DNA from: Larkinella terrae
GTDB taxonomy: Bacteria; Bacteroidota; Bacteroidia; Cytophagales; Spirosomataceae
Assembly (NCBI RefSeq): GCF_009668025.1
Contig: NZ_WJXZ01000007.1
Span: 229,152-293,151 of the forward strand
DNA length: 64,000 nucleotides
Reading direction: 5' to 3'
Both the position numbers and the translations under genes were made by a program. Below, piece after piece: positions 3,692-63,670 of this stretch (position 1 is its first letter; each line of letters opens with the position of its first letter). The notes beneath the pieces were generated by a model that worked only from the letters and a program-made list of their open reading frames with translations, had not been told where the DNA came from and searched no databases.

Positions 3692-3780
3692 GAAGAGGTT
3701 AGACAAGAGAGAAGAGACGGGCAATAAAGTAGTTTCTGAATGAGTTATTTAAGTCTTTTATCGCTTGTCTAACGTCTTTC
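3692..3780. repeat. Long intergenic inverted repeat (GTTAGACAA family)
   Basis: Arm 3692-3718 pairs with 3753-3780 at about 23 of 27 positions. The words GTTAGACAAGAGA and their complement are shared with the element at 37055-37136. It fills the spacer between two genes on the same strand, and there is no T-run as in a classical terminator. Confidence 0.75.
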
Positions 3781-3793
3781 AATCGAATTAAAA

Positions 3794-4522
3794 ATGCTGC
3801 CAGTTTTTCGGAAAGAAATCAACGGTTTTTTCAGCTCGCCGGTCGCTTACGTCATCATGATTGTGTTCCTGACGGCGGTGGGGCTGATGTTGTGGGTCTT
3901 TCCCGATACGAGTCTGCTGGATTACGGCTATGCCGACCTGGGCGTTTTTTTTAACCTGACGCCTTACGTGATGCTGTTTCTGATCCCGGCTATCACCATG
4001 CGCTCCATTGCTGAGGAAGTCCGGACCGGAACCATCGAGTGGCTGCTCACCAAACCGCTGACGCGCTGGCAACTGATCCTCGCTAAATTTCTGGCTAACT
4101 GGCTATTGGTGGTACTGTTATTGCTACCCACTCTGCTGTATTATTACTCGGTTTACCAACTGGGGAACCCGCGCGGTAATCTGGATTCAGCCTCGGTTTT
4201 TGGTTCCTACGTGGGGCTGCTGCTGCTGGGGGGCGTCTTTGTGGCAGTCGGATTGTTCGCGTCTTCAATCAATGAAAATCAGGTTGTTGCGTTTGTTGTG
4301 GGCGTGTTTTTGTGTTTTCTTTTATACGTCGGAATCAGTTCGGTTGCCGGACTGGAGTTTTGGGGCACGCTGGCTTATCCGCTGACCTGGATCGCGCTCG
4401 ACGAGCAGTACCAGGCGCTGGGACGCGGCCTGATCGACTCCCGGAATGTGCTTTATTTAGTCAGTGTAATTATCCTATTTTTGTTTTTGACCGAGTGGCG
4501 AATGACGGCCCTCACCCGCTGA
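3794..4522 (+). CDS. gldF: GldF-like ABC-2 permease
   Basis: 242 residues with six membrane spans. It starts MLPVFRKEINGFFSSPVAYV, contains PAITMRSIAEEVRTGTIEWL, and has LLTKPLTRWQLILAKF, the typical pattern of GldF. GldF is the permease of the ABC transporter linked to gliding motility in Bacteroidota. The usual partner gldG (auxiliary component) does not follow; a VanZ-like gene comes next, one base after the stop. Assignment to GldF rather than another ABC-2 permease rests on overall pattern and length. Confidence 0.85.
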   Translation: MLPVFRKEINGFFSSPVAYVIMIVFLTAVGLMLWVFPDTSLLDYGYADLGVFFNLTPYVMLFLIPAITMRSIAEEVRTGTIEWLLTKPLTRWQLILAKFLANWLLVVLLLLPTLLYYYSVYQLGNPRGNLDSASVFGSYVGLLLLGGVFVAVGLFASSINENQVVAFVVGVFLCFLLYVGISSVAGLEFWGTLAYPLTWIALDEQYQALGRGLIDSRNVLYLVSVIILFLFLTEWRMTALTR

Positions 4523-4523
4523 T

Positions 4524-4871
4524 ATGCGACTGGAAGTTCTAATCAAATGGGCCGCTATTGCCTGGACAATCATCATTTTTATCGGCTGCGCCTGGCCCAG
4601 CGATTATCCCTCTCCGGGGCTAACGGTGAATGATAAGCTTCTGCACGTCAGCATCTTCGGCTTGTGGGGCCTTCTGTGGGTGACCATCTACCGGTTTCCG
4701 GTCCGCCTTTTCATCATCGGCGTCGTCTACGGTTTTTTAATCGAAATTTACCAATTGGTCATGCCCATCAACCGGGATTTCGAATGGCTCGACCTCCTGG
4801 CCGACGCCTGCGGTATTCTGCTTGGGCTGGTTGTTGGCATCCTCGTGGTCCGACGGCTGATGAAAGGGTGA
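4524..4871 (+). CDS. VanZ family protein
   Basis: 115 residues with four hydrophobic segments. The family pattern is visible: a first helix ending in PSDYPSPGL, then DKLLHVSIFGLWG, then GFLIEIYQLVMPINRDFEWLDLLAD with the acidic residues conserved in VanZ-like proteins. VanZ gives low-level teicoplanin resistance in enterococci, but the role of family members in Gram-negative bacteria is unknown. It begins one base after the permease stop, so translation is probably coupled. Confidence 0.85.
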   Translation: MRLEVLIKWAAIAWTIIIFIGCAWPSDYPSPGLTVNDKLLHVSIFGLWGLLWVTIYRFPVRLFIIGVVYGFLIEIYQLVMPINRDFEWLDLLADACGILLGLVVGILVVRRLMKG

Positions 4872-4881
4872 TTTGCAAAAA

Positions 4882-4983
4882 AGAATGTTAAATGTAAAAT
4901 GATGAATGCTAAATGTAAAAGTAGTGGCAAAATTCCCAACTCACTTTTACATTTAGCATTCATCATTTTGCATTTAACATTCT
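4882..4983. repeat. Long intergenic inverted repeat (AATGATGAATG family)
   Basis: Arm 4882-4922 and arm 4943-4983 are complementary at 40 of 41 positions around a 20-base loop. Each arm reiterates the words AAATGTAAAA and ATGATGAATG. It occupies the spacer between convergent genes and is closely similar to the element at 49580-49659. Confidence 0.9.
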
Positions 4984-4989
4984 CTTCTT

Positions 4990-6090
4990 CTACGGTTTCA
5001 AAACCGTCAAAACCGGTGCTCCAACCGGGTGTTCGCATTTAAAATCCTGCCCCAGAAGCCGGGCCACGGTTGCCGCCAGCTGGTTCTGGTACAGCACCGG
5101 ACCGCCGGATTGCTCGCCGGTGGGCGGTGTGTCGGGGCCGATAACGGCAAACCACATCTGGTACGAATCCGGCGTTTTCGTGCCGTGTCCTTTCCAGGTT
5201 GATTTCGGCGTGTGACCGCGCCCGTGATCGGTCGTGATCATCAGCGTCGTTTTTCCGGCGTACTGCGGAATTTGCTGAATCGTTTTCCAGAGATCGGCCA
5301 GGAACGCATCGACGGCATGGACCATCCGCAGGTCGTCGGCATAGCGGCCGGCGTGGGCCAGCCCGTCAGTTTCGTCGAACTGCATGAAAAGGACCTTCGG
5401 GTGGTTTTGCAGCAGATAATTCTTCGCCATGTAATAGGTTAGAAAATCGCTGCGAACGGTTTTGTCCCAAACCTGAGGGGGAATGGTGGACATCATGCTG
5501 TTGAGCAGCGAATCCGCAGCGGTTTTAGGCGAAGGCACTGGCTCATTACCCGAGTTGGCGTAAATCCCGGTTTTCTTCTCATTGACAGCCGCTTCGATGA
5601 CGTCCCAGGACGAAAAGGCGGCAATTTTTCCCTTGTACGCAGGCTGGTTGTGCAAAAATTCGAGGACGGTGGTATTCGGATTATCAATTTTGTCGTTCGA
5701 TTTGATGCGATCATCGGCGTAACCGGAAAGGATTTCGTTGTAACCTGGATAACTGAACCAGAACGGATTGGAATTATTAACCTTGCTGTTTTTCAATCGA
5801 TTACCGTAAAGTTGTCCCTGTTTGGAAACCGTGTTCCAGAGAAACGGAAAAGCCAACTGGCGCCGTTGCTGCTGCGTGGCAGCCCAGAAGTTTTTGCGGG
5901 CCGCTGCCGTATCCGGCGAATAAACCGGGTCGAAAAGCAGCGTTGAGTCGGCACCGTTGAAAACTTCCTGCCAGCGAACGCCATCGAGTGTGACCAGAAT
6001 GACGTTTTCGGTTTTCTGGGCGTAAAGAAGTGGCAGACCGCTTAAAAGCAGGAAAACGATTAGAAAATAGGCATGTACGGGTCTGTTCAT
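4990..6090 (-). CDS. Secreted alkaline phosphatase superfamily protein
   Basis: 366 residues from the ATG at 6090. That start gives a clean signal peptide (FLIVFLLLSGLPLLYAQ) and leaves room for the divergent promoter. Family features: ENVILVTLDGVRWQEVFNG with the first metal-binding Asp, FMQFDETDGLAHAGRY, and MITTDHGRGH with the Asp-His pair. A further His lies in WKGHGTKTPD. This fold includes phosphodiesterases, sulfatases and phosphoglycerate mutases; the substrate is not evident. The protein should be periplasmic. It is divergent from the Gfo/Idh/MocA gene. Confidence 0.8.
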   Translation of the reverse strand: MNRPVHAYFLIVFLLLSGLPLLYAQKTENVILVTLDGVRWQEVFNGADSTLLFDPVYSPDTAAARKNFWAATQQQRRQLAFPFLWNTVSKQGQLYGNRLKNSKVNNSNPFWFSYPGYNEILSGYADDRIKSNDKIDNPNTTVLEFLHNQPAYKGKIAAFSSWDVIEAAVNEKKTGIYANSGNEPVPSPKTAADSLLNSMMSTIPPQVWDKTVRSDFLTYYMAKNYLLQNHPKVLFMQFDETDGLAHAGRYADDLRMVHAVDAFLADLWKTIQQIPQYAGKTTLMITTDHGRGHTPKSTWKGHGTKTPDSYQMWFAVIGPDTPPTGEQSGGPVLYQNQLAATVARLLGQDFKCEHPVGAPVLTVLKP

Positions 6091-6190
6091 ACAAGTCGGA
6101 AGAAGGTGGAGAGGAGGCATGATAGAGACGTAAAATAACGAAAAGCCGCCAGATTCTTCCGTGGAAAACCTGTTAATTTTTCGTGAATAC

Positions 6191-6216
6191 TTGAAAAATG
6201 ACAAGGCTTATTTTTG
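6191..6216 (+). promoter_or_regulatory. Candidate promoter of the Gfo/Idh/MocA gene
   Basis: A perfect -7 element TATTTTTG at 6209-6216 is preceded by TTG at 6191-6193. The 15-base spacer is shorter than usual for Bacteroidota promoters. The start codon lies at 6251. Confidence 0.45.
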
Positions 6217-6250
6217 TACCTTGAAATCCAATTTTCGACCCTATAACCGT

Positions 6251-7531
6251 ATGAATCATCCGCTTAACCGCCGGGAATTCCTGAAACAGAGCAGCGCTGG
6301 CGCGCTTGGTCTGGCGTTCTTTCCAACCCTCCGGAAGGTGGCTCCCAGCGACCGGCTGCGCATCGCCCACATTGGCCTGGGTGGCATGGGCAACAACCAC
6401 ATGGGCTGGTTTGCCAAACTGCCCGAAGTCGAAATTGTCGCCTTGTGCGACCTGGATCAGGACCATTTGAACAGCAGCCTGAAACGGTTGTCGGAGTTGA
6501 ATCCGGGAACGAAGGCGCAGGGATACGGAGACTTTCGGCACATTCTCGACCGGAAAGACATTGACGCCATTACCGTGGCCACGCCCGACCACTGGCACGC
6601 TCAGATTGCCATTCTGGCTTTTCAGGCCGACAAGGATGTGTATGGCGAAAAACCGCTGTCGTTCGATGTTCGCGAAGGGCAGAAGATGTTGAAAAATCTG
6701 AACCGGCATAAGCGGGTTTTTCAACTCGGAACGCAGATTCACGCCGGAGATAATTACCACCGCGTGGTTGAACTGATTCGGGGTGGCGCCATTGGAAAGG
6801 TTCATACCGTTCGCCTGTGGAAAACCGGTTTGCCACCTGATCTGGGTCCGGCCAATTACCAGACGCCACCGTCGACGCTCAACTGGGATATGTGGCTCGG
6901 TCCGGCTCCGCAGTCGCTTTATACGCCCCAGCGGTGCCATTTTACCTACCGGTATTTTCTGGATTATTCGGGTGGGGTTTTTCAGGATTTCTGGTGCCAC
7001 ATCGCCGACGTGGTCTGGTGGTCGATTCAGCCGAAAAACCTGAAAAGCGTCAGCGCAACCGGGGAAGCGCCGGACGGAATCGCCGACGCCCCCAAGTCGA
7101 TCAACATAGATTATGAGTTCGAAAATCTGAAGCTCTACTGGACTTCCGAACCGCCCAACGTGCCGGGAGCCGCTAAGAAAGGCATTGGGGCCTATTTCGA
7201 AGGCGACAAAGGTACGTTACTCTGCGATTACGGTTCCCGCGAAATCACCGTCAACGGAGTGATTATGACGGACATTCCGGAGATCCCCAAGACCATACAA
7301 CGCTCTCCCGGCCATCAGCAAAATTTTGTCGATGCCGTGAAATCCCGGTCGCAGCCCGAGTCCAATCTGGAATACGCCCGCCAGATGACGATGCCCATGC
7401 ATTTGGGACTCATTTCATACCGCCTGGGCAAAAAGTTGGAATGGAATGCCAGAAAGGAAAAATTTGTCCACGACCGGGAGGCCAACGCGTATTTATCGCG
7501 GGAATACCGGCGGCAATGGGATTTAATCTAG
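6251..7531 (+). CDS. Gfo/Idh/MocA family oxidoreductase with Tat signal
   Basis: 426 residues from the ATG at 6251. The N-terminus is a twin-arginine-type export signal (NRREFLKQSSAGALGLAFFP). A Rossmann nucleotide site follows (IAHIGLGGMGNNH), then VATPDHWHAQIA and GEKPLSFDVREGQKM, which supplies the catalytic Lys of the EKP motif. The C-terminal beta-sheet domain is the usual GFO_IDH_MocA_C. Exported members are thought to act on sugars or cyclitols in the periplasm with tightly bound NAD(P). The substrate is unknown. The gene is alone on this strand. Confidence 0.9.
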   Translation: MNHPLNRREFLKQSSAGALGLAFFPTLRKVAPSDRLRIAHIGLGGMGNNHMGWFAKLPEVEIVALCDLDQDHLNSSLKRLSELNPGTKAQGYGDFRHILDRKDIDAITVATPDHWHAQIAILAFQADKDVYGEKPLSFDVREGQKMLKNLNRHKRVFQLGTQIHAGDNYHRVVELIRGGAIGKVHTVRLWKTGLPPDLGPANYQTPPSTLNWDMWLGPAPQSLYTPQRCHFTYRYFLDYSGGVFQDFWCHIADVVWWSIQPKNLKSVSATGEAPDGIADAPKSINIDYEFENLKLYWTSEPPNVPGAAKKGIGAYFEGDKGTLLCDYGSREITVNGVIMTDIPEIPKTIQRSPGHQQNFVDAVKSRSQPESNLEYARQMTMPMHLGLISYRLGKKLEWNARKEKFVHDREANAYLSREYRRQWDLI

Positions 7532-7546
7532 CGGTTTTCAACCCGT

Positions 7547-8901: not shown

Positions 8902-8933
8902 TATTCGGTATACGGTTTTCAGTATACCGAATA
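8902..8933. repeat. Short intergenic inverted repeat
   Basis: TATTCGGTATAC at 8902-8913 is exactly complementary to 8922-8933, with an eight-base loop. Further copies of the CGGTAT word follow up to about 8938. It lies between two genes of the same strand and could be an operator or a small member of the intergenic hairpin set. Confidence 0.7.
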
Positions 8934-8944
8934 CCGTAAACCTG

Positions 8945-16980: not shown

Positions 16981-17017
16981 TAGCTTAAGTTAACCCTAAT
17001 AGGGTTAACTTAAGCTA
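16981..17017. terminator. Bidirectional hairpin between convergent genes
   Basis: A perfect 17-bp stem, 16981-16997 with 17001-17017, around a three-base loop AAT. A short T-run follows on the plus strand. It lies 39 bases after the upstream stop and 13 bases before the end of the minus-strand gene, as expected of a shared terminator. Confidence 0.75.
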
Positions 17018-17029: not shown

Positions 17030-18631
17030 TTAAATTCGGTCTTTACGGACATAAACTGATACACCTGATTCTTTGCTGACCAATTTGTAGTTAGAAGCTA
17101 CATAGTTTCTTAATACAGGAATATTTTGGTGTACAACCATTTTTGGGTTGATAAAAAAACTATTTGCTTCTACTTCATCAATAAAAACCACTGGCTTATT
17201 TCTCTTCATATCATCAACATATTGTTGGCGATAATAATCAACGAGTTTTAGATCCCGTATAGCACCTAAAGAATTTGTATTCATACACCGAATGGAATGA
17301 TTCTCTCGAGTACCCTGTCTCAATCCGGTAAGGACATGATAATTTAAATTCCAGCCCCACACAACAATGCAATCAGTAGGCTTTGCATATTGGTTAATTA
17401 AATTAATTACCTTGTCTTCATATAATGGTGTATGGCTTGCGGAGAAGGATTGATTTTTGCTGGAATATTTAAGATAATTTGTTATTGCTAATCCAGTAAA
17501 AAAAATAAGCGCTACTATACTGAATATTATTTCAGAATATTTTTTTAAATTCTCTGATTTTACTAATTGATTTATGAAAAAAGCATTCAATAAAGTAATT
17601 GGGAAGAAAGTGTAATACAAATAATGCTCAAAAATATATCCAGTCCTAGCAATTACAAAAAAAGATATAATAAGATTTATAATTAAAAACCAAAGTACTT
17701 TATTATCTAATAAATTGGTTTTATTCCTTATTGTAGTGAAAACTGAAGATACCCAGATTGAAATACTGAATGTAAAGAAGAATAAAAAATCATACGATGA
17801 TTTAAAAATTAATTTTATAAAGAGCATAAGGCTATTTCCAGGATTATTATGAACTAAATTTGTTTTTACATACATTATATAAAAGTCATAAATGAGTTTG
17901 TTTTGGAATAAATAGTAAAGTAATAACCCACCTACTAAACCTGATCCAATTCCAATTGAAACAATTCCTATTAGTTTATCAAATTTGTTTATTTTAGAGC
18001 CAGTTAAGTTAAAAATAGCAAAAGTTATATATAAAAATGCTAAAGGTGCTCCCTGCAATTTAGCCAATGGCACCAGGCAGCAAATGACTCCCAAAGCACC
18101 ATACATCAATGGCGAAGACTGTTTCTTATAATATACTTTAGCAAGAATAAAAACACCAGTTGTAAGTAACATAACAGAAGGTAATTCGCTATTGAAATGG
18201 TTAAAGTCTCTATGATTAGTAAAGAAAAAAAAACTATAAATAATGAATAAGCTTGGAAATGAGACATTAAACGGAAGAAAGATTCGTAACGTGAAATAGG
18301 TTATTGCTAGTGAAGTTATAGTGAGTGTGACTGAAAACAAATGCAGCGTCGAATAATTGAATGGAAATCCTATATACTCTAATAATAATAGAAGGTAACT
18401 ATTGATAGGTCCACTCGTAGTACCATCCACAGACCTCCAAAAAACGGGATCAAACTCTAATGTAATAGCCTGAGTTAACATTTGGCTTTCATCGGGATTT
18501 ATTTCACCATTATGTAAAATGAAAGGTAACTTTTGTATAATAAAAAAGGTAAATAAAGAGAAAAATAATATAAATTCATTTGCGGATAAATTGGTAATTG
18601 TTAATTTAATTGGCATAGAATTGGTTTTCAT
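17030..18631 (-). CDS. GT-C type membrane glycosyltransferase-like protein
   Basis: 533 residues with about ten or more membrane spans. Early in the sequence NGEINPDESQMLTQA supplies the acidic residues of the first periplasmic loop, as in GT-C enzymes of the ArnT/PMT type. The C-terminal part is soluble (from about residue 400), with DCIVVWGWNLNYHVLTG. Such enzymes transfer sugars from polyprenyl-phosphate carriers to proteins, lipids or glycans on the outer face of the inner membrane. The coding sequence is far richer in A+T than the flanking genes. It follows the giant surface-protein gene on the same strand and may glycosylate it. Confidence 0.75.
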   Translation of the reverse strand: MKTNSMPIKLTITNLSANEFILFFSLFTFFIIQKLPFILHNGEINPDESQMLTQAITLEFDPVFWRSVDGTTSGPINSYLLLLLEYIGFPFNYSTLHLFSVTLTITSLAITYFTLRIFLPFNVSFPSLFIIYSFFFFTNHRDFNHFNSELPSVMLLTTGVFILAKVYYKKQSSPLMYGALGVICCLVPLAKLQGAPLAFLYITFAIFNLTGSKINKFDKLIGIVSIGIGSGLVGGLLLYYLFQNKLIYDFYIMYVKTNLVHNNPGNSLMLFIKLIFKSSYDFLFFFTFSISIWVSSVFTTIRNKTNLLDNKVLWFLIINLIISFFVIARTGYIFEHYLYYTFFPITLLNAFFINQLVKSENLKKYSEIIFSIVALIFFTGLAITNYLKYSSKNQSFSASHTPLYEDKVINLINQYAKPTDCIVVWGWNLNYHVLTGLRQGTRENHSIRCMNTNSLGAIRDLKLVDYYRQQYVDDMKRNKPVVFIDEVEANSFFINPKMVVHQNIPVLRNYVASNYKLVSKESGVSVYVRKDRI

Positions 18632-18675
18632 AAATTGTTTTTTAGTTTAAAATATGATTTTTAACTAAACAACAT

Positions 18676-18765
18676 AATATTAAAATTTATTTCTTACTGT
18701 TAAATTGGCGAAACTAATATTATTCAATAATGCCAATTCAACAGTAAGAAATAAATTTTAATATT
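18676..18765. repeat. Long inverted repeat between GT-C and giant gene
   Basis: Arms 18676-18709 and 18732-18765 are complementary at 33 of 34 positions with a 22-base loop. It lies just downstream of the giant gene on the same strand. Transcribed, it would form a very stable AU-rich hairpin without a following U-run. Confidence 0.9.
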
Positions 18766-18784
18766 AGGAGTATTATCCTGTACT

Positions 18785-26304: not shown

Positions 26305-27598
<1,294 letters not shown>

Positions 27599-27641: not shown

Positions 27642-27679
27642 TCTCCAACCGCTGTCAGGGTCTCCAACCGCTGACAGGG
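27642..27679. repeat. Two tandem 19-bp copies of the CCGCTGTCAGGG word
   Basis: TCTCCAACCGCTGTCAGGG at 27642-27660 is followed directly by a copy with one change at 27661-27679. The word is a variant of the arms of the 27506-27598 element. Confidence 0.9.
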
Positions 27680-27714
27680 CCGGTGTTGACAGAGTAATAA
27701 AAATAAATACTGAA

Positions 27715-32440: not shown

Positions 32441-32491
32441 CACAGATGGTTGAGCTTACGGGAGATTTGTTGCGTTCCGATTTACAGAAAA

Positions 32492-32581
32492 AGTCATTCG
32501 CTGGCCAAAGGAGAGTTCTTTTTTCATTAATACATAAAACCGATCAATGAAAACAGATTCCTCTTTTGATAACGAATGACT
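32492..32581. repeat. Imperfect intergenic inverted repeat
   Basis: AGTCATTCG at 32492-32500 pairs exactly with 32573-32581. Weaker complementarity continues inwards (CTTTTTTCATT with AATGAAAACAG). It occupies the spacer between two minus-strand genes. Confidence 0.5.
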
Positions 32582-32617
32582 TACTGGTAGGGCAGAAAAG
32601 GTAATAAAAGCCCGAAA

Positions 32618-33271
32618 TTACATCGGTTTCGACTTCTTACCGACCATTTTCAGGTCAAGCGTGAACGTATCTTCAATAATCCGGTCTGCCGCCGTACCGA
32701 TGATGGCCGCCCGGTATTTAATATCGTAATCCAACCGGTTAACGGTCAGTTTCGCAGTAGCCTCCACATCATCGCCCGATTGTTTAACAACCGCCGGGAA
32801 CGTGATGGGTTTCGTGGTTCCTTTGATCATCAGATCACCGGTAACGTTGTAGTTGGGTTCACCGGTTTTGGCGCCGGAAATCGCTTCGACTTTAGTGATT
32901 TTGAACGTAGAGGTCGGGTTTTTCTCAACGCCAAAAAAATCGTCACTTTTGAGGTGGTTCACCACACGCTCGCTGTTTTTGTTTTCGCTGAGCGTGGTCA
33001 TGTCGGCCGTAAAATTTCCCGCCGTCAGTTTCTTGCCATCAAAAACAAACTCACCTTTCGCCAGCTTAATGTTTCCGGTGTGTTCACCACCCACTTTCTT
33101 CGAGTTCCACACAATCGTACTTTGTTCAGGATCAACGGCGTACGTAACCGGTTTTGCCACTGTTTTAGCCGCACGTTTATCGGGGCCGTGCGTACCGGCG
33201 ATGGTCATTAATGGGGCTGCGGTTAACAGAACGACCGCGAGAAAACCGGCAACAACTTGGTTTGTTTTCAT
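32618..33271 (-). CDS. YceI family periplasmic protein
   Basis: 217 residues with a signal peptide (FLAVVLLTAAPLMTIAG). The mature domain has the YceI lipocalin-like pattern: YAVDPEQSTIVWNSKKVGGE, HTGNIKLAKGEFVF, then NFTADMTTLSENKNSERVVN, HLKSDDFFGVEKNPTSTFKI and a final LTVNRLDYDIKY. YceI proteins bind polyisoprenoid lipids in a barrel; their physiological role is not settled. A short hydrophilic stretch (about residues 25-40) separates the signal from the barrel. Confidence 0.95.
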   Translation of the reverse strand: MKTNQVVAGFLAVVLLTAAPLMTIAGTHGPDKRAAKTVAKPVTYAVDPEQSTIVWNSKKVGGEHTGNIKLAKGEFVFDGKKLTAGNFTADMTTLSENKNSERVVNHLKSDDFFGVEKNPTSTFKITKVEAISGAKTGEPNYNVTGDLMIKGTTKPITFPAVVKQSGDDVEATAKLTVNRLDYDIKYRAAIIGTAADRIIEDTFTLDLKMVGKKSKPM

Positions 33272-37054: not shown

Positions 37055-37136
37055 AGACAAAAGAAAAAAGATGATAGATTATCTTATTAATTTTTAACCG
37101 GTTAATCGCTTATCTATTCTCTTTCTTCTTTTGTCT
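37055..37136. repeat. Long intergenic inverted repeat (GTTAGACAA family)
   Basis: Arm 37055-37080 pairs with 37111-37136 at about 22 of 26 positions. Its GTTAGACAAAAGAA word is related to the element at 3692-3780, 33 kb away. Confidence 0.75.
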
Positions 37137-40706: not shown

Positions 40707-40766
40707 AATGATGGATAATGGACGATGAATTTTGCTTCCACTTTTCATCGTCCATCATCCATCATT
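40707..40766. repeat. Intergenic inverted repeat reaching into eda
   Basis: Arms 40707-40728 and 40745-40766 match at 21 of 22 positions (word GATGGATAATGG). A second stem, CCATCATTG (40759-40767) with CAATGATGG (40782-40790), extends the structure into the last codons of eda, around a GCGAGCGCAGCGAG core. Confidence 0.85.
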
Positions 40767-41451: not shown

Positions 41452-41661
41452 AACAATGAATAATGAACAATGAATTTCAACAGGTTACCCCATTCATTGA
41501 GACTGTTTAAACTTTCCACTTTGTCATCCCGGGGAACGAGGGATCTTCGGGTGATAGGATCGAGTAGTATTCATTCGAAGATCCCTCGTTCCCCGGGATG
41601 ACAAAATGCAGTCATTTTGATTCAATTATGAAAAGTTTAAACCGGTTCATTATTCATTGTT
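41452..41661. repeat. Nested composite inverted repeat between eda and kdgK
   Basis: Three concentric stems. The outer is 41452-41468 with 41645-41661 (17 of 17). The middle is GTTTAAACTTT 41505-41515 with 41632-41642 (11 of 11). The inner is 41520-41548 with 41577-41605 (29 of 29; word CCCGGGGAACGAGGGATC). The outer arms use the AATGAATAATGAAC word and the inner arms an unrelated GC-rich word. Together they occupy nearly the whole 241-base spacer. Confidence 0.92.
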
Positions 41662-42703: not shown

Positions 42704-42825
42704 AAATGGAAAGATGGTTAAAAATGGTTGGATGGCTGTTTATGGTTAAAATGGTTAGCTGGTTGTGATGGTTAAATCATTGAATCCTTCTAACCATCCA
42801 ACCATTTTTAACCATCTATCCATTT
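42704..42825. repeat. Long intergenic inverted repeat (ATGGTTA family)
   Basis: Arms 42704-42735 and 42794-42825 match at 31 of 32 positions. The arms and loop reiterate ATGGTTAAAAATGGTTGG-like words. It fills the spacer between the MFS gene's stop and kdgK's TTG start. Confidence 0.92.
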
Positions 42826-44348: not shown

Positions 44349-46058
44349 ATGGGTCAAGACATAACAGCGTACGTCGAACGCGTTAGAAGCCTTATTTTTA
44401 ACGAAAAATTCGATCTTCTTCCGGATCTTGAACTTGAAAAACCGGCGTATTTCAATTGGGTCACCGACGTTTTTGAAGACCTGAACGTCGCCCGGTTTCC
44501 GGACAAACCGGCCCTGATCTGGACCAATGGCGACCGTTCGGAAACCCATACGTATAGCGAACTGAGTGAAGAATGTAACCAGTTGCTGAACCTGCTGCGG
44601 GCCAGCGAAGTGCAGCAGGGCGACGTCATCATGGCGCAGCTCGCCAGTCTTCCGGCTATCTGGACGTCCATTCTGGCGGTGATCAAAGGCGGTTTTAAAC
44701 TGATTCCGCTGGCCACCGTGCTGGGAGTGAACGACCTCGTCTACCGGTTTGGCAAGCTGCGACCGAAAGTGGTTTTGGCCGACCCGGACAACGCGGAGAA
44801 AATCGACGCGGCCGAAAAACTGGCCACTATTCACATCGGCCTGAAGATTCTGACCGACGGCCAACGCGACGGCTGGATCGCTTATGATGAAGTGCAGAAC
44901 TACCCAAAAACCGCCGAAGCCGCACCGACCCGGGCCGATGACCCCCTGTTTCTATTCTTCACCTCCGGGACCACCGGAATGCCGAAAGTGGTGAATCACA
45001 CGCATTTCACGTACCCAATCGGGCACCTGACGACCGCTTCGTGGATTGGTTTGAAGCCGAATGACATTCATTACAACATTGCGCAACCGGGCTGGGCCAA
45101 GTTTGCCTGGAGCAGTTTTTTTGCCCCCTGGAATATGGGTGCGACAATTTTTTCGTACAGCCAGCCCGGGCGGTTTGATGCCCGATTGCAATTGCAGCAG
45201 CTTGAAAAACATAAGGTTACGACCTTTTGCTGTCCGCCAACCGTTCTGCGAATGCTGATTCAGGAAGACCTGACGCCATTCCGGCTGAGCCTGCGGGAAT
45301 GCGTGGCGGCTGGCGAGCCTTTAAATCCCGAAATCATTGAGGTCTGGCGAAAAGGAACCGGCATAACGATTCGCGACGGTTTCGGCCAGACCGAAAGTTC
45401 CTGCCTCATCGCCAACTTGCCGAACGCGGTGATCAAGCCCGGCAGCATGGGAAAACCGCTCTTTTTGTATGAGGTGGTTATCGCCGACGATGAAGGAAAC
45501 GAACAGTCGCTTTACGAGGAAGGGACGATCTGCGTGAAAATGGATACCGGAACGCCAAACGGGATTTTTGCCGGATATTTCAATGAGCCGGAAAAAATGA
45601 AAGCGGTTTTTCGGGAAGGGCTGTACTTTACGGGTGACAAGGCGTACCAAGACCAGGATGGTTACATCTGGTTCGTCGGCCGGGACGATGACGTGATCAA
45701 ATCGTCGGATTATCGCATTGGTCCGTTTGAGGTGGAAAGCGCCCTGTTGGAACACGAGGCAGTGGTGGAATCGGCCGTTGTGGGAAGTCCGCATCCGGTG
45801 AAAGGATTCGAAATTAAAGCTTTTGTGGTGCTGACGCCGGACTCTGAACCTTCGGCTGCTCTGGCCGAAGAGCTTTTTGTATTCAGTCGGGCGCATCTTT
45901 CACCGTTTAAAATGCCCCGCATCATCGAATTTGTCAACGAATTGCCGAAAACGATCAGCGGCAAAATCCGTCGGGTTGAACTGCGCGCGCAGGAGGCACG
46001 CAATAAACTGGATGGGCTGGTGATTGGGAACGAATTTAGTTATACGAAGAAATCGTAA
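44349..46058 (+). CDS. AMP-forming acyl-CoA synthetase
   Basis: 569 residues of the ANL superfamily. The P-loop LFLFFTSGTTGMPKVV, the DGFGQTESS motif, the YFTGDKAYQDQDGYIWFVGR hinge with its Asp, and the C-terminal catalytic Lys in LPKTISGKIRRVEL are all present. Such enzymes activate a carboxylic acid to the acyl-AMP and then the CoA thioester. The closest pattern is that of medium-chain acyl-CoA synthetases. Its place in a hexuronate cluster is odd; nothing in the sequence shows a uronate-related substrate. Confidence 0.9.
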   Translation: MGQDITAYVERVRSLIFNEKFDLLPDLELEKPAYFNWVTDVFEDLNVARFPDKPALIWTNGDRSETHTYSELSEECNQLLNLLRASEVQQGDVIMAQLASLPAIWTSILAVIKGGFKLIPLATVLGVNDLVYRFGKLRPKVVLADPDNAEKIDAAEKLATIHIGLKILTDGQRDGWIAYDEVQNYPKTAEAAPTRADDPLFLFFTSGTTGMPKVVNHTHFTYPIGHLTTASWIGLKPNDIHYNIAQPGWAKFAWSSFFAPWNMGATIFSYSQPGRFDARLQLQQLEKHKVTTFCCPPTVLRMLIQEDLTPFRLSLRECVAAGEPLNPEIIEVWRKGTGITIRDGFGQTESSCLIANLPNAVIKPGSMGKPLFLYEVVIADDEGNEQSLYEEGTICVKMDTGTPNGIFAGYFNEPEKMKAVFREGLYFTGDKAYQDQDGYIWFVGRDDDVIKSSDYRIGPFEVESALLEHEAVVESAVVGSPHPVKGFEIKAFVVLTPDSEPSAALAEELFVFSRAHLSPFKMPRIIEFVNELPKTISGKIRRVELRAQEARNKLDGLVIGNEFSYTKKS

Positions 46059-47398: not shown

Positions 47399-47474
47399 GT
47401 TTATGGTTTAAAGTTTAAGGTTTAAAGTCTGGTCCTGGTTTTAACCTTAAACTTTAAAACCTTTAACCATAAAC
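47399..47474. repeat. Intergenic inverted repeat (TTTAAAGTTTAAGG family)
   Basis: Outer arms GTTTATGGTT 47399-47408 with 47465-47474, and inner arms 47407-47422 with 47443-47458 (16 of 16), give a hairpin with an asymmetric bulge. The word GTTTAAGGTTTAAAG is reiterated. It ends six bases before the Uma2 ATG. Confidence 0.88.
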
Positions 47475-47480: not shown

Positions 47481-48119
47481 ATGGCGGAAGTTCAGGAAAA
47501 ACAGAATACAAAACGCAATCCGGCGCAGCGCGAGGCCCGGATCGCGAGGGCTCGTTTGCTCGAATCGCTCGTCTATGAGATGTGGGACGGCAAACCGGTT
47601 TATTACGCCGGCTACAAGGATGTCTTGAGCGGTATTAAATCGGCAGAAAGCGTAATGAGTTCGCGTTTGTTACGAGGAATATTGATCGCCAAATTGGTCG
47701 CCCGGTTAATCAATGGGTTGAATGAGGAAGAGTTTACGGTGGTCACCAATGAATTAGGTGTTCAGTTTAAAAAGAATGACTGGAGAGCCTGCGATATTGC
47801 CGTTTTTTCGAATTCGCAGCTGGAAGGTCAGGATCTGTCCAAATATGCCTGGGTTCCGCCGAAGATTGCGATTGAAGTAGACACCAAAGCTGACTTCAGC
47901 CGCTTTCATTCTGATTTTAATTATTACCAGGAAAAAACCACCCAATTGCTCAATTTTGGCGTCGAAAAAGTGATCTGGATTTTTACCGAATCAAGAAAAA
48001 TATGGATTGCGGAACCCCAGAAAGACTGGCTTTTGAAGAACTGGGACCAGCCCATCGACGTGCTTCCGGGCTGTTCGTTTGTACTCGATGCGTTGTTGAC
48101 GGGTAAAAAGTCGGCGTAA
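47481..48119 (+). CDS. Uma2-family (DUF820) putative nuclease
   Basis: 212 residues. A charged N-terminus is followed by the PD-(D/E)XK-like core of Uma2 proteins: WRACDIAVFSNSQLEGQDLS with the catalytic Asp, and PPKIAIEVDTKADFS with Glu and Lys. FGVEKVIWIFTESRKIWIAE continues the fold. Members are widespread in cyanobacteria and Bacteroidota and often come in many copies; their function is unknown. It lies between uxuA and uxaC, right after an inverted-repeat element, which suggests late insertion into the operon. Confidence 0.88.
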   Translation: MAEVQEKQNTKRNPAQREARIARARLLESLVYEMWDGKPVYYAGYKDVLSGIKSAESVMSSRLLRGILIAKLVARLINGLNEEEFTVVTNELGVQFKKNDWRACDIAVFSNSQLEGQDLSKYAWVPPKIAIEVDTKADFSRFHSDFNYYQEKTTQLLNFGVEKVIWIFTESRKIWIAEPQKDWLLKNWDQPIDVLPGCSFVLDALLTGKKSA

Positions 48120-49567: not shown

Positions 49568-49579
49568 GGAAGAAATTTT

Positions 49580-49659
49580 AAATGAAAAATGATGAATGTC
49601 GAATGTAAAAGTGGCTCTGCCTCATTACTTTATCATTCAATATTCATCATTTTTCATTT
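49580..49659. repeat. Long intergenic inverted repeat (AATGATGAATG family)
   Basis: Arms 49580-49612 and 49627-49659 match at 29 of 33 positions. The words AAAAATGATGAATG and GAATGTAAAAGT are nearly those of the element at 4882-4983. It lies between convergent genes. Confidence 0.88.
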
Positions 49660-49698
49660 TTGATTTTAAAGTGCTTCAACGAGTACCGTAAAAACAAA

Positions 49699-53641: not shown

Positions 53642-53787
53642 TGACCATTGACAATTGACCATCGACCATTTTCAATGGTCAGTCGTCTATTGTCATCAAT
53701 TCTGCCCTTGACAGCTCCCATCGACCATTTTCAATCGTCAGTTGTCGATGGTCAATGGTCATCCGTCTATTGTCATCAATACTGCCC
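53642..53787. repeat. TTGACCATTGAC-type inverted and direct repeats overlapping a gene end
   Basis: The words TGACCATTGAC and CATCGACCATTTTCAA recur in both orientations; for example CCATCGAC 53718-53725 pairs with 53744-53751. A 35-base segment at 53673-53707 is repeated 80 bases on at 53753-53787 with about three changes. The second copy includes the last codons and stop of the CoA-binding gene. Confidence 0.85.
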
Positions 53788-58942: not shown

Positions 58943-58992
58943 AATATAACCCCAAAATCATGCCAAAATTTCTGACATAGTTCCAACGTTGT

Positions 58993-59319: not shown

Positions 59320-59476
59320 ACTGTGTAAAAATTCCTTTTGCTGACTGAAATTTACAAACTTTACCCCAAAATATTGCCAATAGATACCAGTTTTCAGTTT
59401 ATGATTCTGTGAATGGTTGACTACAAATTAATCGGCACGAACAACTGAAAGTCGCTTCCGACACTTGAAATTGCTT

Positions 59477-60001
59477 ATGGACTTTATCCCTGATTTATTA
59501 AAATTACTGATTCCGGCCGGGCTGGTTTTATACGGCATGTATCTAACCGTCAAGCTGATGCTGGAACGCGAAGCTGACAAACAGCGGGTTGATCTGAAAA
59601 ACCGCTATGCCAGCGAAGTAACGCCCCTGCGCTTGCAGGCTTACGAACGCATGGCGTTGTTTCTGGAACGAATCACGCCCGCCAATCTGCTTTTGCGGCT
59701 GAACGGTCAGGCCCCGCTGGCCCTGGATTTTCAGCAACTGCTGCTTCAGGAAATCCGGGAAGAATACAACCACAACGTTTCGCAGCAGATTTACATGAGC
59801 CAGGCGGTTTGGGAATCCGTCCAGAATGCCATGAATGAGGTGGTGCTGCTGATAAACGAAGCTGCCGGTGAAACCGCTCCGGATGCGCCCGCGCTGGATT
59901 TATCTAAAAAGATTTTTGATAAAGTTATCCAGAAAAATGTCCAGCCGACGGCTTCCGGTCTCAAAGCCGTAAAAGACGAAGTACAGGGGATTTTTCTCTA
60001 A
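59477..60001 (+). CDS. Conserved membrane-anchored protein, function unknown
   Basis: 174 residues from the ATG at 59477; a TTG 12 bases earlier is less likely. One N-terminal membrane span (LLKLLIPAGLVLYGMYLTV) is followed by a soluble helical domain: RLQAYERMALFLERITPANL, LLQEIREEYNHNVSQQIYMS. It resembles conserved single-span proteins of Bacteroidota of unknown function (DUF7935-like, from memory). Its stop overlaps the convergent gene's stop by four bases. Confidence 0.7.
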   Translation: MDFIPDLLKLLIPAGLVLYGMYLTVKLMLEREADKQRVDLKNRYASEVTPLRLQAYERMALFLERITPANLLLRLNGQAPLALDFQQLLLQEIREEYNHNVSQQIYMSQAVWESVQNAMNEVVLLINEAAGETAPDAPALDLSKKIFDKVIQKNVQPTASGLKAVKDEVQGIFL

Positions 60002-60885
60002 ACGGGGCCACCCGCCGGTCCGTGGGTACGGGAGCCTAAGATTTCGGAGGATAACACCAAGGCTTCGGCCAGGCGGTTTTGGTTGATATGCAGCGAAATG
60101 CCCTCTTTTTTAATAAGATAGGTAATTTGTTCCGTGGGTAAATTACCGGTTAACGCATCGGAAGCCATCGGACAGCCGCCCAAACCTTGCAAAGCGCCAT
60201 CGATGCGCTGAACGCCCGCCCGCAGAGCCGCCTGTACTTTTTCGGCGACCTGTTCCGGTCGGGAATGCAGGTGGGCACCAAACTCAATCGTCGGAAAAGT
60301 CCGTAGTAAATGCCCGAACAACGTCTCAATTGCTTCGGGAGTGGAAGAGCCGATAGTATCGGAAGGTGCAATGATTGCGATACCGCTACGGACGAGTCGT
60401 TCGGTAAATTGCCCCACGATTTCAGGGCTGTAGGGGTCGCCGTACGGATTGCCGAAACCCATTGACAGATAGACGACCAACTGCTTCTGATGCGTGACGC
60501 AGAGTTGCTGGATGGCTTCCACTTCGGCAAAAGCCTGAGTGATGGTTTTGTTGGTATTGCGCAGTTGAAACGTTTCCGAAACCGATAACGGAAAACCGAG
60601 ATACTGGATTTCCGGGTACAAAACCGCCTGTTCGGCCCCGCGCAGGTTGGCAACAATCGCCAGCAGCTCTGTTCGGGTTTCGGTTAAATCCAGACCCGCC
60701 AGTACCTCCGCCGTGTCGCTCAGCTGCGGAATGGCTTTGGCCGATACGAAACTGCCGAAATCGAGGGTATCAAAACCGACCCGCAGCAAGGCATTCAGGT
60801 AGCGGATCTTATCCTCCGTTGGAATGAAATCGGCCAATCCCTGCATCGCATCGCGCGGGCATTCAATCAATTTAAACGAATTCAT
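59998..60885 (-). CDS. Hydroxymethylglutaryl-CoA lyase-like enzyme
   Basis: 295 residues from the ATG at 60885. HMGL-type TIM barrel: ECPRDAMQGLADFIPTEDKI with the catalytic Arg-Asp, FGSFVSAKAIPQLSDTAEVL, APSDTIGSSTPEAIETLFGH, GAHLHSRPEQVAEK with the metal His pair, and GLGGCPMASDALTGNLPTEQ with the active-site Cys. It splits HMG-CoA to acetyl-CoA and acetoacetate, as in leucine breakdown; related lyases or synthases are possible. No leucine pathway genes are adjacent. Confidence 0.88.
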   Translation of the reverse strand: MNSFKLIECPRDAMQGLADFIPTEDKIRYLNALLRVGFDTLDFGSFVSAKAIPQLSDTAEVLAGLDLTETRTELLAIVANLRGAEQAVLYPEIQYLGFPLSVSETFQLRNTNKTITQAFAEVEAIQQLCVTHQKQLVVYLSMGFGNPYGDPYSPEIVGQFTERLVRSGIAIIAPSDTIGSSTPEAIETLFGHLLRTFPTIEFGAHLHSRPEQVAEKVQAALRAGVQRIDGALQGLGGCPMASDALTGNLPTEQITYLIKKEGISLHINQNRLAEALVLSSEILGSRTHGPAGGPV

Positions 60886-61026
60886 AGGTCCAGATGGCAA
60901 AATGCGTGAAAGTTGTCCGGATTTAAACCGGCAATTGACTTTCAGGGTGTAATTTTGCGGTTTTTACGAAAAAAGCAACCGAACTGCTTTTCTGTTGCCC
61001 GTGTTATTTCATGTACCCTTGTATCC

Positions 61027-61043
61027 ACGGACTGTTAGTCCGT
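61027..61043. repeat. Small perfect hairpin upstream of mutS2
   Basis: ACGGACT (61027-61033) pairs with AGTCCGT (61037-61043) around GTT. It lies 95 bases before the mutS2 start, within a 252-base spacer in which nothing else was recognised. Purpose unknown. Confidence 0.5.
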
Positions 61044-61137
61044 AAGATCTTGGTGTTAAACGGTGTTCTAAACCATCCAGAATCTCACTAACTAGACGGG
61101 ATCGCCCGCCGGTCCGTAACAACAAGAAGAACAACAA

Positions 61138-63561
61138 ATGCTCTATCCTGATTCATTTGAACAAAAATTAGGTTTCGATAAAATCCGCGATTTGCTCCGG
61201 CAGGCTTGTATGAGCCCGTTGGGACAGTCGTATGTTGATAAAATCCGGTTTTCCGATAATTTCCAGCTGATCGACAAAATGCTTCGGCAGGTGGCCGAAT
61301 TTAAAACCATCGTGCAATACGAACCGGAATTTCCGGCGTCGAATTACCTGGACATTCGGCCGCAGCTCGGTAAGATTCGGATCGAGGGCATGATGCTCAC
61401 CGAAGAAGAATTTTTTGACCTGAAGCTCACCCTGCGGACCATTCAATTGTGCCTGCGGTTTTTGGCGGGCAAGGAAAAAGACGTTTACCCGTACCTGACC
61501 GAACTCGCCGATTCCATCACCGTTGACAAGAAACTGACGGATGCCATCGAGCGCGTGATCGACGACCGGGGCCACGTCCGCGATTCGGCCTCGCCGGAAC
61601 TCGCCAACATTCGCCGTCGCATCATCACTGAGCAGGCCGGTTTGCGCAAAAAACTGGACGGCATCATGCGGAATGCCCGCCAGCAGGGCTGGATGCCCGA
61701 CGATATTTCGCTCACGATCCGGAACGGGCGGGTGGTTATTCCGATTTCGGCGGAACACAAACGGCGGCTGAAAGGCTTCATCCACGACGAGTCGGCCACG
61801 GGCCAGACGGTTTTTATCGAACCGGCGGAGGTGTTCGACACCAATAACGAAATCCGCGAACTGGAATACGAGGAACGACGCGAAGTGGCCCGCATTCTGC
61901 GCGAATTGACCGACGTGCTTCGCCCGTATCTGCCTGAATTACAGCGAGCCACGACTTTTCTGGGTCTAATCGACTTCATTCGGGCAAAAGCCCGGTTTGC
62001 GCTGCAGATCGACGCCGGAATGCCGAAGCTGGTCAACCAGCCGCTGGTGGACTGGCTTCAGGCGCGGCACCCGCTGCTGCACCTGTCGTTTCAGAAACAG
62101 GGCAAAAAGGTGGTCCCGCTGAATCTGCTGCTCGATCCGGGTCAGCGAATCCTGATCATCTCGGGGCCGAACGCCGGGGGAAAATCCGTTGCGCTCAAAA
62201 CGATTGGGCTGCTGCAATATATGGTGCAGAGCGGTTTGCTGATTCCGGTTATTGAAGGCTCGACGGCGGGAATTTTTCAGAATCTGTTCATCGACATTGG
62301 GGACGAACAGTCGCTGGAAAACGACCTGAGTACCTACAGTTCGCACCTGACCAGCATGAAGGCGTTTGTGACATTTGCGAATCGCAAAACGCTGTTTCTC
62401 ATCGACGAATTTGGTACGGGAACCGAACCCGGTTTGGGGGGCGCCATTGCCGAGGCCATTCTGGAGGAACTGACCAAATCGGGTGCGTACGGGGTGATCA
62501 ATACGCACTACACTAACCTGAAACTTTTCGCCGATAAAACCACGGGGCTGGTCAACGGGGCGATGCGGTTTGACGGCGAACACCTGGAACCGCTCTATGA
62601 ACTCGAGATTGGTCGGCCGGGCAGTTCGTTTGCGTTCGAGATTGCGTCGAAAATCGGATTGCCGAAAAATGTCATCGACCGGGCGAAGGAAAAACTGGGA
62701 TCGCAGCAGGTCAATCTCGAAAAACTGCTGAAAGAACTGGACATCGAAAAGCGGGTTTTTGCCGAAAGAAACCTGGAAATGGGGATCAATCAGCGCAAAC
62801 TGGCCCAGCAACTGGCCGAAACCACCGCCCTGAAAACCCGACTCGACAACGATCAGAAAAAATTGCTGAACGAAGCCAAGCAGAAGGCCAGGGCCTTGGT
62901 GGCCGAAGCGAACCAGCGGATTGAAAACACCATTCGCGAGATCAAGGAGAACAAGGCCGAGCGTGATATGACCCGGCTGGTGCGGCAGGAACTGGAGCAG
63001 TTTGATAAAAAAGAGCTGCGGCAGGAAACCCTGGTGGAGGATGCAAAACCGGCCAGGGCCAAGGTTGAAACGGAAGAGTTTCTGCCTGAATCCGGGACCA
63101 TCGCGGTAGGTAGTTTTGTGCAGATCAAGGGGCAATCCACGATTGGCGAGGTGCTGGCGATTCGGGGAAAGGACGCCGAAATCCGGATTGGCGATCTGAA
63201 ATCCACCATCAAGCTAAACCGCCTGGAAAAAGTCAGTCGCAAAGTCTACCGCGAAGCCGTGGGCGAAACCGCCCGCCCGAAAATACAGGGCATCGACCTG
63301 AATGAGAAGATGATGAACTTCAGCTTCAACCTTGACATTCGGGGACAAAGGGGCGAAGAAGCAATGGTGGAACTCGATAATTTTATCAATAACGGCCTGA
63401 TGCTCGGCTATCCTGAACTACGGATTGTGCACGGCAAAGGCGACGGCATTCTGCGCACCTTAGTCAGAAACCACTTGCGGACCTTCCCGCAGGTTGTTTC
63501 CATGCAGGACGAACACGCCGACCGGGGTGGGGCCGGAGTAACGGTGGTGAAATTGTCGTAA
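61138..63561 (+). CDS. mutS2: MutS2 family protein
   Basis: 807 residues. Order: N-terminal core/lever domains to about 330, ATPase with Walker A GPNAGGKSVALKTIGLL (about 343), Walker B LFLIDEFGTGTEPGLGGAIA, then TNTHY-type INTHYTNLKLFA. A coiled-coil insertion follows (about 520-640), then an SH3-like/KOW part (GSFVQIKGQSTIGEV). A C-terminal Smr nuclease domain is at about 725-807 (NLDIRGQRGEEAM, RIVHGKGDGILR). MutS2 suppresses recombination or rescues stalled ribosomes depending on species; it does not do mismatch repair. Confidence 0.96.
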   Translation: MLYPDSFEQKLGFDKIRDLLRQACMSPLGQSYVDKIRFSDNFQLIDKMLRQVAEFKTIVQYEPEFPASNYLDIRPQLGKIRIEGMMLTEEEFFDLKLTLRTIQLCLRFLAGKEKDVYPYLTELADSITVDKKLTDAIERVIDDRGHVRDSASPELANIRRRIITEQAGLRKKLDGIMRNARQQGWMPDDISLTIRNGRVVIPISAEHKRRLKGFIHDESATGQTVFIEPAEVFDTNNEIRELEYEERREVARILRELTDVLRPYLPELQRATTFLGLIDFIRAKARFALQIDAGMPKLVNQPLVDWLQARHPLLHLSFQKQGKKVVPLNLLLDPGQRILIISGPNAGGKSVALKTIGLLQYMVQSGLLIPVIEGSTAGIFQNLFIDIGDEQSLENDLSTYSSHLTSMKAFVTFANRKTLFLIDEFGTGTEPGLGGAIAEAILEELTKSGAYGVINTHYTNLKLFADKTTGLVNGAMRFDGEHLEPLYELEIGRPGSSFAFEIASKIGLPKNVIDRAKEKLGSQQVNLEKLLKELDIEKRVFAERNLEMGINQRKLAQQLAETTALKTRLDNDQKKLLNEAKQKARALVAEANQRIENTIREIKENKAERDMTRLVRQELEQFDKKELRQETLVEDAKPARAKVETEEFLPESGTIAVGSFVQIKGQSTIGEVLAIRGKDAEIRIGDLKSTIKLNRLEKVSRKVYREAVGETARPKIQGIDLNEKMMNFSFNLDIRGQRGEEAMVELDNFINNGLMLGYPELRIVHGKGDGILRTLVRNHLRTFPQVVSMQDEHADRGGAGVTVVKLS

Positions 63562-63568
63562 ATTGTTC

Positions 63569-63670
63569 TGAACTTGGATTCCACGGATTAAAGGATTAAC
63601 CAGGATTGTTACCGCTGGTTTTTATCCAATAAGATCCTTTTAATCCTTTAATCCGCGTAATCCAAGTTCA
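63569..63670. repeat. Long inverted repeat (GGATTAAAGGATTAA family) reaching a stop codon
   Basis: Arms 63569-63599 and 63640-63670 match at 29 of 31 positions. The right arm ends on the stop codon of the minus-strand Uma2 gene. It lies between convergent genes. Confidence 0.9.

Follow-up and report, generated by a model that had tools for sequence, protein, structure and literature searches.

A 64,000-nucleotide stretch of the Larkinella terrae genome (hereafter the window, G000:C20:229152-293151, where G000 is the source genome, a 7.85-Mb draft of 22 contigs, and G, C and L number genomes, contigs and loci) carries long inverted repeats in many of its intergenic spacers, raising the question of what these hairpins are and how they come to differ in sequence. 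Comparison of sequences documents their placement, a presence kept with changed sequence among close species, a 7-bp period, a strand asymmetry, inverted loops and a scarcity of U-tract terminators beside them. On balance, we favour the reading that they are 3′-end hairpins, probably terminators or guards of mRNA 3′ ends, which are replaced and rewritten in place.

The chance expectation was estimated on 1.004 Mb of G000 (C6:1-800000 and C20:129152-333151, window included), in which genes were called by a simple codon-usage script and spacers of at least 20 bp were counted. Ungapped hairpins scoring at least 16 were present in 132 of 606 spacers, versus 0.0 in dinucleotide-shuffled spacers (five shuffles each), and 183 of the 187 hairpins scoring at least 13 had intergenic centres. 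The hairpins are real and far above chance expectation. A preliminary description of the window had listed inverted repeats in 15 spacers and proposed the shuffled comparison as a check; the excess bears it out, and inverted repeats were found at all 15, with 13 being ungapped hairpins scoring at least 14 and those at 8902 and 32492 being weak. A search of the window against Rfam gave no match at the gathering score. Sixteen stretches of other genera (L206-L221, 320 kb) held 19 hairpins scoring at least 16, and eight of these stretches had none. Among the open-licence PMC papers returned by literature searches, no title or abstract opening described hairpins of 7-bp words at gene ends in Bacteroidota.

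In the 1.004-Mb sample, hairpins scoring at least 16 occupied 34 of 90 convergent, 89 of 395 co-directional and 9 of 121 divergent spacers. The corresponding figures for loci of named relatives, which we summed over 60 of the 80 named loci and which include two N runs (L045 and L076) that are not hairpins, were 37 of 94, 52 of 511 and 2 of 152. All three orientations do occur, as had been described, but divergent spacers are strongly under-represented. The median distance from stop codon to stem start was 7 bp in convergent and 7.5 bp in co-directional spacers, and 76 of 88 co-directional hairpins lay closer to the upstream stop. U-tract terminators, counted with those overlapping a long hairpin omitted, were absent from all 89 co-directional spacers that hold a long hairpin but present in 24 of the 267 that do not (p = 0.001); the figures for convergent spacers were 2 of 34 versus 12 of 43 (p = 0.017). 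T-runs after the stem (at least five T in eight) were mostly lacking, as first noticed, with one at only 23 of 160 transcript ends. Because they lie near stop codons, are biased in orientation and seldom stand beside U-tract terminators, the hairpins are likely gene-end elements, as judged from these position and exclusion data; the same observations leave unsupported the earlier view that terminator or gene-end function was insufficient to explain them. Stem-loops of bacteria generally prefer gene 3′ ends (PMC1590033; statements on published work here and below refer to excerpts of the papers cited), and what is distinctive here is the low U-tract rate together with the words of which many arms are made.

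The short reiterated words noticed in the preliminary description have mostly a 7-bp period. Across 124 arms of the 1.004-Mb sample, z was 14.1, 10.5 and 8.1 at lags 7, 14 and 21, and 48 of 134 hairpins had arms made of 7-bp words. In a wider set of 357 hairpins from 2.36 Mb of several Larkinella, with orthologous hairpins of close species counted separately, 70 of the 253 arms measuring 20 nt or more matched best at lag 7, versus 2.9 of the shuffled arms (lag 10 came next, with 15 arms), and a fixed rule classed 100 of the 357 as heptad hairpins. The heptad stems are 31% GC and differ between strands: G exceeded C in 85 of the 90 5′ arms with a difference (p = 7.5e-20), the 5′ arm is 66% purine, and U makes up 42% and pyrimidines 66% of the RNA 3′ arm. 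In G000 alone, G-rich 5′ arms numbered 38 versus 1 among the 48 heptad hairpins. The other 257 hairpins of the wider set had a slight 5′ G bias (132 of 229), and the 41 classic terminators of G000 had a 5′ purine fraction of 0.51, with G above C in 12 and below it in 20. Since an inverted repeat is identical on both strands, the G-rich-arm-first asymmetry is valid for both transcripts of a convergent pair.

Comparison of arms among 165 hairpins gave 402 arm-arm links, versus none in 3000 shuffled pairs. Several words do occur, as described before, but they are not free to vary: they fall into dispersed families, the largest holding 30, 17, 16 and 13 of the 165 hairpins. Within families of at least three members, loop likeness was 0.18-0.33 in 10 of 12, versus 0.28 for random loops, and 0.45 and 0.49 in the remaining two. 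The suggestion that arms spread without their loops is limited by some GAGTTAA loops being related and inverted; for a GAGTTAA hairpin in L. rosea and its counterpart in G006 and G002 (spacer 52), which lie at different gene pairs, the loops aligned with a score of 22.5 inverted versus 6.0 direct. The loop motif GGCTGACGC, chosen after the loops were inspected and counted with orthologous copies included, recurred with at most one mismatch across five word families (GAGTTAA 17 of 37, GTTTACGG 9 of 20, others 3 of 23, 3 of 10 and 2 of 9); elsewhere it was seen in none of the 54 hairpins belonging to five further named word groups, in 1 of 204 unassigned hairpins and in 19 of 1785 random segments. 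The loops of GAGTTAA and GTTTACGG hairpins have the motif GCGTCAGCCAAC in common, with unrelated arm words.

Searched across the phylum, the word repeat GAGTTAAGAGTTA was found in 29 of 296 genomes, a count that proves nothing for that word because the backwards-read control, which hit at least as many, is itself a heptad repeat. Among the 13 of 30 GAGTTAAGAGTTA loci inspected at the match, the rest having the word on the opposite strand, three lay at a hairpin (L225, L228 and L249, the last with the C-rich arm as 5′ arm) and four were direct arrays (L222, L227, L232 and L241). Direct GAGTTAA arrays occur in other Bacteroidota, and a comparison of GAGTTAA words with plasmids gave one weak match only.

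Changes of word at a fixed place were followed in a triad of Larkinella genomes (G003, G006 and G002), whose alignments within the first 80-kb block cover 60-69 kb at 91.5-92.8% identity. In three synteny blocks, at a hairpin score of at least 14, the three pairwise comparisons, which share sequences, found hairpins in both, one or neither genome at 28/9/110, 27/22/125 and 26/13/94 spacers. Where both had a hairpin, the words differed in 10 of 28, 7 of 27 and 5 of 26 cases (22 of 81 overall). A stricter sameness rule, applied to one block in both directions, gave 17, 10 and 8 different, 0, 6 and 2 with none, 2, 2 and 1 degenerate, and 17, 24 and 24 the same. Cases of presence versus absence were seen at spacer 29 in one comparison and at spacers 25 and 30 in another. 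The cleanest case of changed words is the fabH / CoA-binding spacer, where hairpins fill most of the 68-138 bp between two stop codons: the word is TGACCAT in the window, GAGTTAA in G003 and G002, and AGAATAAAGAGGTGAGACAAGAG in G006. In a wider comparison of the 80 named loci with 157 hairpins scoring at least 14, counted as ordered pairs such that each pair may count twice, the numbers of different, no and same hairpin were 13/20/30 at about 90% flank identity, 19/19/20 at about 85%, 71/230/29 at about 80% and 21/149/12 at about 75%. Judged by these alignments, the presence of a hairpin is strongly conserved between close species, whereas at greater divergence it is mostly lost or goes undetected. 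In relatives, a syntenic spacer frequently has other words in the same position, an outcome for which the preliminary description had proposed to look.

The fifteen hairpins of the window lie in five convergent, eight co-directional and two divergent spacers (27506 and 37055) by the list of open reading frames:

3693-3778: hairpin with 26-nt arms, GAGACAAGAG word family, lag-7 match 0.63; co-directional spacer
4879-4986: hairpin with 41-44-nt arms of AATGATGAATG/AATGTAA heptads; convergent spacer
8902-8933: short, weak hairpin (score 12) with 12-bp arms, 8-nt loop and TATACGG/TATTCGG words; co-directional spacer
16981-17017: perfect 17-18-bp hairpin with 1-3-nt loop, followed by TTTT and resembling an ordinary terminator; convergent spacer
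18675-18766: AT-rich hairpin with 35-nt arms, without clear heptads; co-directional spacer
27506-27598: hairpin with perfect 33-nt arms, CTGTCAGCGG family (six members), by eye like repetitive extragenic palindromic (REP) sequences; divergent spacer
32490-32582: long imperfect stem, weak, seen by RNA fold only (-37.7 kcal/mol for 32480-32620); co-directional spacer
37055-37136: purine-rich hairpin with 25-nt arms; divergent spacer
40707-40766: heptad hairpin with 23-nt arms, ATGATGG; MtlD / KDPG-aldolase spacer
41452-41660: outer AACAATG/AATAATG heptad hairpin with a second hairpin nested in its loop; KDPG-aldolase / KdgK spacer
42704-42825: hairpin with 32-nt arms of ATGGTTA words; KdgK / MFS spacer
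47399-47474: hairpin of GTTTAAA heptads; 3′ of uxuA
49573-49666: AATGATGAATG hairpin with 40-nt arms; convergent uxaC / DUF4920 spacer
53642-53761: hairpin of TGACCAT heptads with 39-nt arms; convergent fabH / CoA-binding spacer, flanking gene identity confirmed
63565-63674: hairpin of GGATTAAAGG words with 35-nt arms, dispersed; 3′ of a mutS2-like gene

At the uxuA locus, the nearest named relatives are four Larkinella species (L. rosea, L. knui, L. arboricola and L. soli; 84-96% protein identity), and when five hairpin spacers of this region were compared with them, 12 of 20 species-spacer cells held a hairpin scoring at least 11. The MtlD / KDPG-aldolase spacer has GAGTTAA words in L. rosea and is without a hairpin in L. 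arboricola and L. soli. At the matching flanks of the KDPG-aldolase / KdgK spacer, L. rosea has AATGAAC, L. knui GATGAAT and L. arboricola GAGTTAA hairpins, all without the nested element, and L. soli has none. The nested element itself, TCATCCCGGGGAACGAGGGATCTTCG (41517-41608, arms 41517-41554 and 41571-41608), is the scored element of that site; L. rosea retains a related loop, TTCAACAGGTT, without the nested TCATCCCGGGGAACGAGGGATCTTCG hairpin. Between KdgK and the MFS gene, no hairpin is present in L. rosea or L. knui, a weak one in L. arboricola and one of TTGAATTG words in L. soli. After uxuA, L. rosea has GGTTTAC words and L. knui an unrelated perfect 40-bp hairpin, with none in L. arboricola and L. 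soli; after uxaC, L. rosea has a long hairpin of GGAAAGGATTAAAGG words, L. knui and L. arboricola short GC hairpins and L. soli, by eye, a U-tract terminator. Elsewhere in the window, the three relatives covering the spacer of the 37055 hairpin (L. knui, L. arboricola and L. soli) are without a hairpin at the corresponding position. The CTGTCAGCGG family has a third copy at 27649-27680, near the 27506 hairpin, and AATGATGAATG occurs 63 times in G000 versus 3 for its reversed control.

Two neighbouring genes vary among the same species. A weakly Uma2-like gene (47481-48119) lies between uxuA and uxaC, likewise in L. rosea, Fibrisoma limi and two Spirosoma; the remaining five of nine loci examined, including L. 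knui, L. arboricola and L. soli, gave no match. A gene for an AMP-binding enzyme (44349-46058) lies between the MFS gene and uxuA, likewise in L. rosea, and was not found there in L. knui, L. arboricola or L. soli.

Loops and arms of the triad bear on how such hairpins change. Among 60 pairwise comparisons of same-word pairs, a strict rule found 10 inverted loops, 16 in the same orientation, 16 unalignable and 18 shorter than 8 nt; a looser rule gave 14 inverted, some doubtful by eye, and the strict rule was used. Counted by site, the loop was inverted at 7 of 20 alignable sites, among them sites 45 and 130 of block 0 and site 35 of block 2. Inversions were seen in heptad stems, in those of paired REP sequences forming hairpins (REPINs), in GCGGAG and GGATTGAACG stems and in plain terminator-like ones. 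The loops measured about 10 to 108 nt, and those of 10-40 nt are probably too small to have been turned by a site-specific invertase. The stem pairs comprised 758 unchanged, 83 with a single change, 12 with a compensatory double change, 3 with a broken double change and 27 with a gap. By our arithmetic, about 4 double changes are expected at about 6.6% change per position, few of them pairing, although the pairwise comparisons share data and an equal excess would follow if pairing were under selection. At site 130, an inverted loop occurs together with a paired T-A to G-C change, a combination that PMC8794818 regards as the strongest possible support for template switching. Template switching is favoured here because loop flipping needs the arms to meet at the DNA level, for which it is the simplest known route. 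At spacer 23, G002 has a plain terminator, and G003 and G006 have the same core with a longer stem, which may reflect lengthening or the reverse change. In Dyadobacter, by eye, arms of GGAGGAAGGGG words in L062 flank the degenerate form of a hairpin core that the syntenic L056 keeps intact; the arms appear younger than the core, as if the stem of an earlier terminator had grown or an insertion had occurred around it.

The hairpins are not one class, contrary to what had been supposed: some of the listed sites are REP-like by eye, and GC-rich REP/REPIN-like families stand beside the dispersed families of 7-bp words. The GC-rich families CCCCTAAAGGGG, CCCACGGTTTTAACCGTGGG and GCGTGCCnnnGGTACGC have dispersed palindromes in opposite-orientation pairs, as REPs and REPINs do, and look the part, e.g. 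CCCACGGTTTTAACCGTGGG with AACCGTTTTAACGGTTT, or GTAG-ended palindromes nested within one another. The 110 non-heptad loops are structured (z -1.33), as expected of nested REPs. Three genes with a Y1_Tnp domain, the type of REP-associated tyrosine transposases (RAYTs), were detected in G000, at L203 (C18), L204 (C1) and L205 (C6), and their Pfam match suggests that they are true RAYTs. GC-rich nested palindromes adjoin all three, a different set each: on both sides at L203, where they have GTAG ends, and on one side at L204 (CCCACGG family) and L205.

Mobile hairpins offer another explanation, in which both kinds are REPINs or miniature inverted-repeat transposable elements that insert preferentially at gene ends or into hairpin loops, and a changed word records the gain of one family and the loss of another. 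The spread of the words does look like mobility in its lineage-specific expansion, in the presence/absence cases and in the related, inverted loop of GAGTTAA hairpins at different gene pairs. A query of the mutS2-like gene plus the 63565 hairpin gave 28 matches in G000, 65 in G008 and 1-6 in seven other Larkinella, the own gene included; the places are fewer than the matches, because palindromic places are often matched on both strands. Nesting also fits, as in the 41517 element inside the AACAATG hairpin and in the GTAG-ended palindromes. The words are unlike mobile elements in that their loops are unrelated in most families (10 of 12 no more alike than random, with arms alike) and have no RAYT partner: no heptad word family brackets any of the three Y1_Tnp genes of G000, where one imperfect GAGACAAGAG hairpin lies about 1 kb from the gene in L205, beside another gene, and by eye the GTAG tag is absent from heptad hairpins. 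We consider this explanation rather unlikely.

Plain intrinsic terminators under weak constraint, with long stems arising by chance and words as slippage noise, are improbable. Stop-codon adjacency and the bias against divergent spacers are what bacterial stem-loops show generally (PMC1590033), and heptamer repeats are over-represented in bacterial genomes (PMC4692102); this explanation is at odds with the 137 of 160 ends that have no T-run, the low GC content of heptad arms, the recurrence of the same words at many sites and the G-rich 5′ arms, which classic terminators do not share. Least credible, and very improbable in our judgement, is that the 7-bp words are binding arrays for a word-recognising protein or small RNA, with the vocabulary selected and not the fold, since one word takes the place of another at a given gene end, a change that should disable any reader specific for the word, even if words are common to sites whose loops mostly are not and the post hoc GGCTGACGC motif is common to hairpins with different words.

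Under the favoured reading of 3′-end hairpins replaced and rewritten in place, stem-loops directly after stop codons would be transcribed and would end or protect the upstream mRNA, serving both genes in convergent spacers, and selection would tend to retain a hairpin at the place and not its sequence. The hairpins would come from two sources, the GC-rich REP/REPIN-like families and the tandem 7-bp-word families, for which no RAYT partner was found. Their arms would exchange information at the DNA level, most likely by replication template switching, which can flip loops, copy changes from arm to arm and lengthen stems; slippage in 7-nt steps would reshape the words. Pyrimidine-rich RNA forms weak hybrids with DNA, and because the RNA 3′ arm of the word type is U- and pyrimidine-rich, this arm may itself supply the weak RNA-DNA hybrid otherwise given by a U-tract. 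A sharper version is a tentative possibility: in a fast rewriting cycle at Spirosomataceae gene ends, hairpin-primed template switching would copy one arm over the other and invert the loop, 7-nt slippage would create the words, and selection would ask only for a stem with a U- and pyrimidine-rich RNA 3′ arm. The preliminary description had proposed copying or rewriting in place through inverted copies of short tracts; the 12 versus 3 paired arm changes, the seven inverted loops and the changed words among close species support it, but rewriting alone is insufficient, because several kinds of hairpin are present and the word families are dispersed.

Several observations weigh against the favoured reading. 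Dispersed families require a spreading mechanism, and none was found. Where words differ, loops mostly differ as well (by eye), which resembles whole replacement and not the rewriting of arms. Among the four named Larkinella, 8 of the 20 species-spacer cells are without a hairpin, and at 75-80% flank identity 379 of 512 comparisons find none. The triad comparisons are not independent, and none of the four alignable loops in the 80 named loci was inverted. The exclusion of U-tract terminators partly reflects the hairpin occupying room, because overlapping terminators were left out, and the general lack of T-runs sits uneasily with termination. The simple gene caller misses genes, e.g. 17030-18631. 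Loops as relics of older hairpins were considered, and this is unsupported for heptads (64 loops, mean z -0.50 versus -0.32 in 150 controls). Under intrastrand template switching, the 5′ arm is expected to favour G and U (PMC8794818); the 5′ arms are G-rich but A-rich (A above T in 75, below in 24), and because A is found in place of the predicted U, intrastrand switching is not the whole story.

The phenomenon is real, unusual and partly new, and is built from known kinds. Like the REP/REPIN and RAYT systems of PMC3733652, with their GTAG and CGTC palindromes, the genome has palindromes of 20-40 bp scattered downstream of genes, in convergent as well as unidirectional spacers and frequently as two opposite units, and nested GC-rich palindromes beside its Y1_Tnp genes; the heptad hairpins differ in being AT-rich, made of 7-bp words and without tag or partner. 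The perfect stems, compensatory double changes and inverted loops are the footprints of template-switch hairpins described by Monttinen and Loytynoja (2022, PMC8794818), whose 69 loop inversions are typically of 4 nt and lie in rRNA genes, whereas those found here span about 10-108 nt at gene ends. In small inversions of chloroplasts, such as trnH-psbA (PMC2903610), a loop between inverted repeats of at least 18 bp flips within species, and the hairpin may affect mRNA stability; those are plastid sequences, and mutually replacing, word-built arms are a feature of the Larkinella hairpins. Heptamer direct repeats of Beggiatoaceae, cyanobacteria, Bacteroidetes and Xanthomonas share the 7-bp unit, a mostly intergenic position and variation between related species, and heptamers paired in inverted orientation are on record for Xanthomonas and Nostoc (PMC4679880, PMC4692102). 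Most of them are direct arrays, which in BOGUAY usually lie immediately upstream of start codons, whereas here the stem that follows a stop codon is built from two inverted arrays; the Larkinella arrays examined were those found as hairpins, with paired inverted arms, unlike TAACTGA or short tandemly repeated repetitive (STRR)-type direct arrays without an inverted partner. With Rho-independent terminators, the hairpins share a stem-loop directly after the stop codon, common to convergent genes and rare in divergent spacers, and differ in the long stem, the long loop, the usual lack of a U-tract and, in the word type, low GC.

For the biology of the family, the hairpins offer a natural series in which words change, loops flip and stems perhaps lengthen over about 8% divergence, steps that published work reports from rRNA and microRNA genes and from chloroplast spacers. 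They make two questions testable: what keeps stems perfect as their letters are exchanged, and whether an arm rich in U can stand in for a U-tract in termination. They also carry a warning, in that spacer alignments in the Spirosomataceae group can mix inverted loops with substitutions. If the rewriting cycle is true, these bacteria would have terminators that need no separate U-tract and can change sequence almost freely, and close species would end the same gene with unrelated words.

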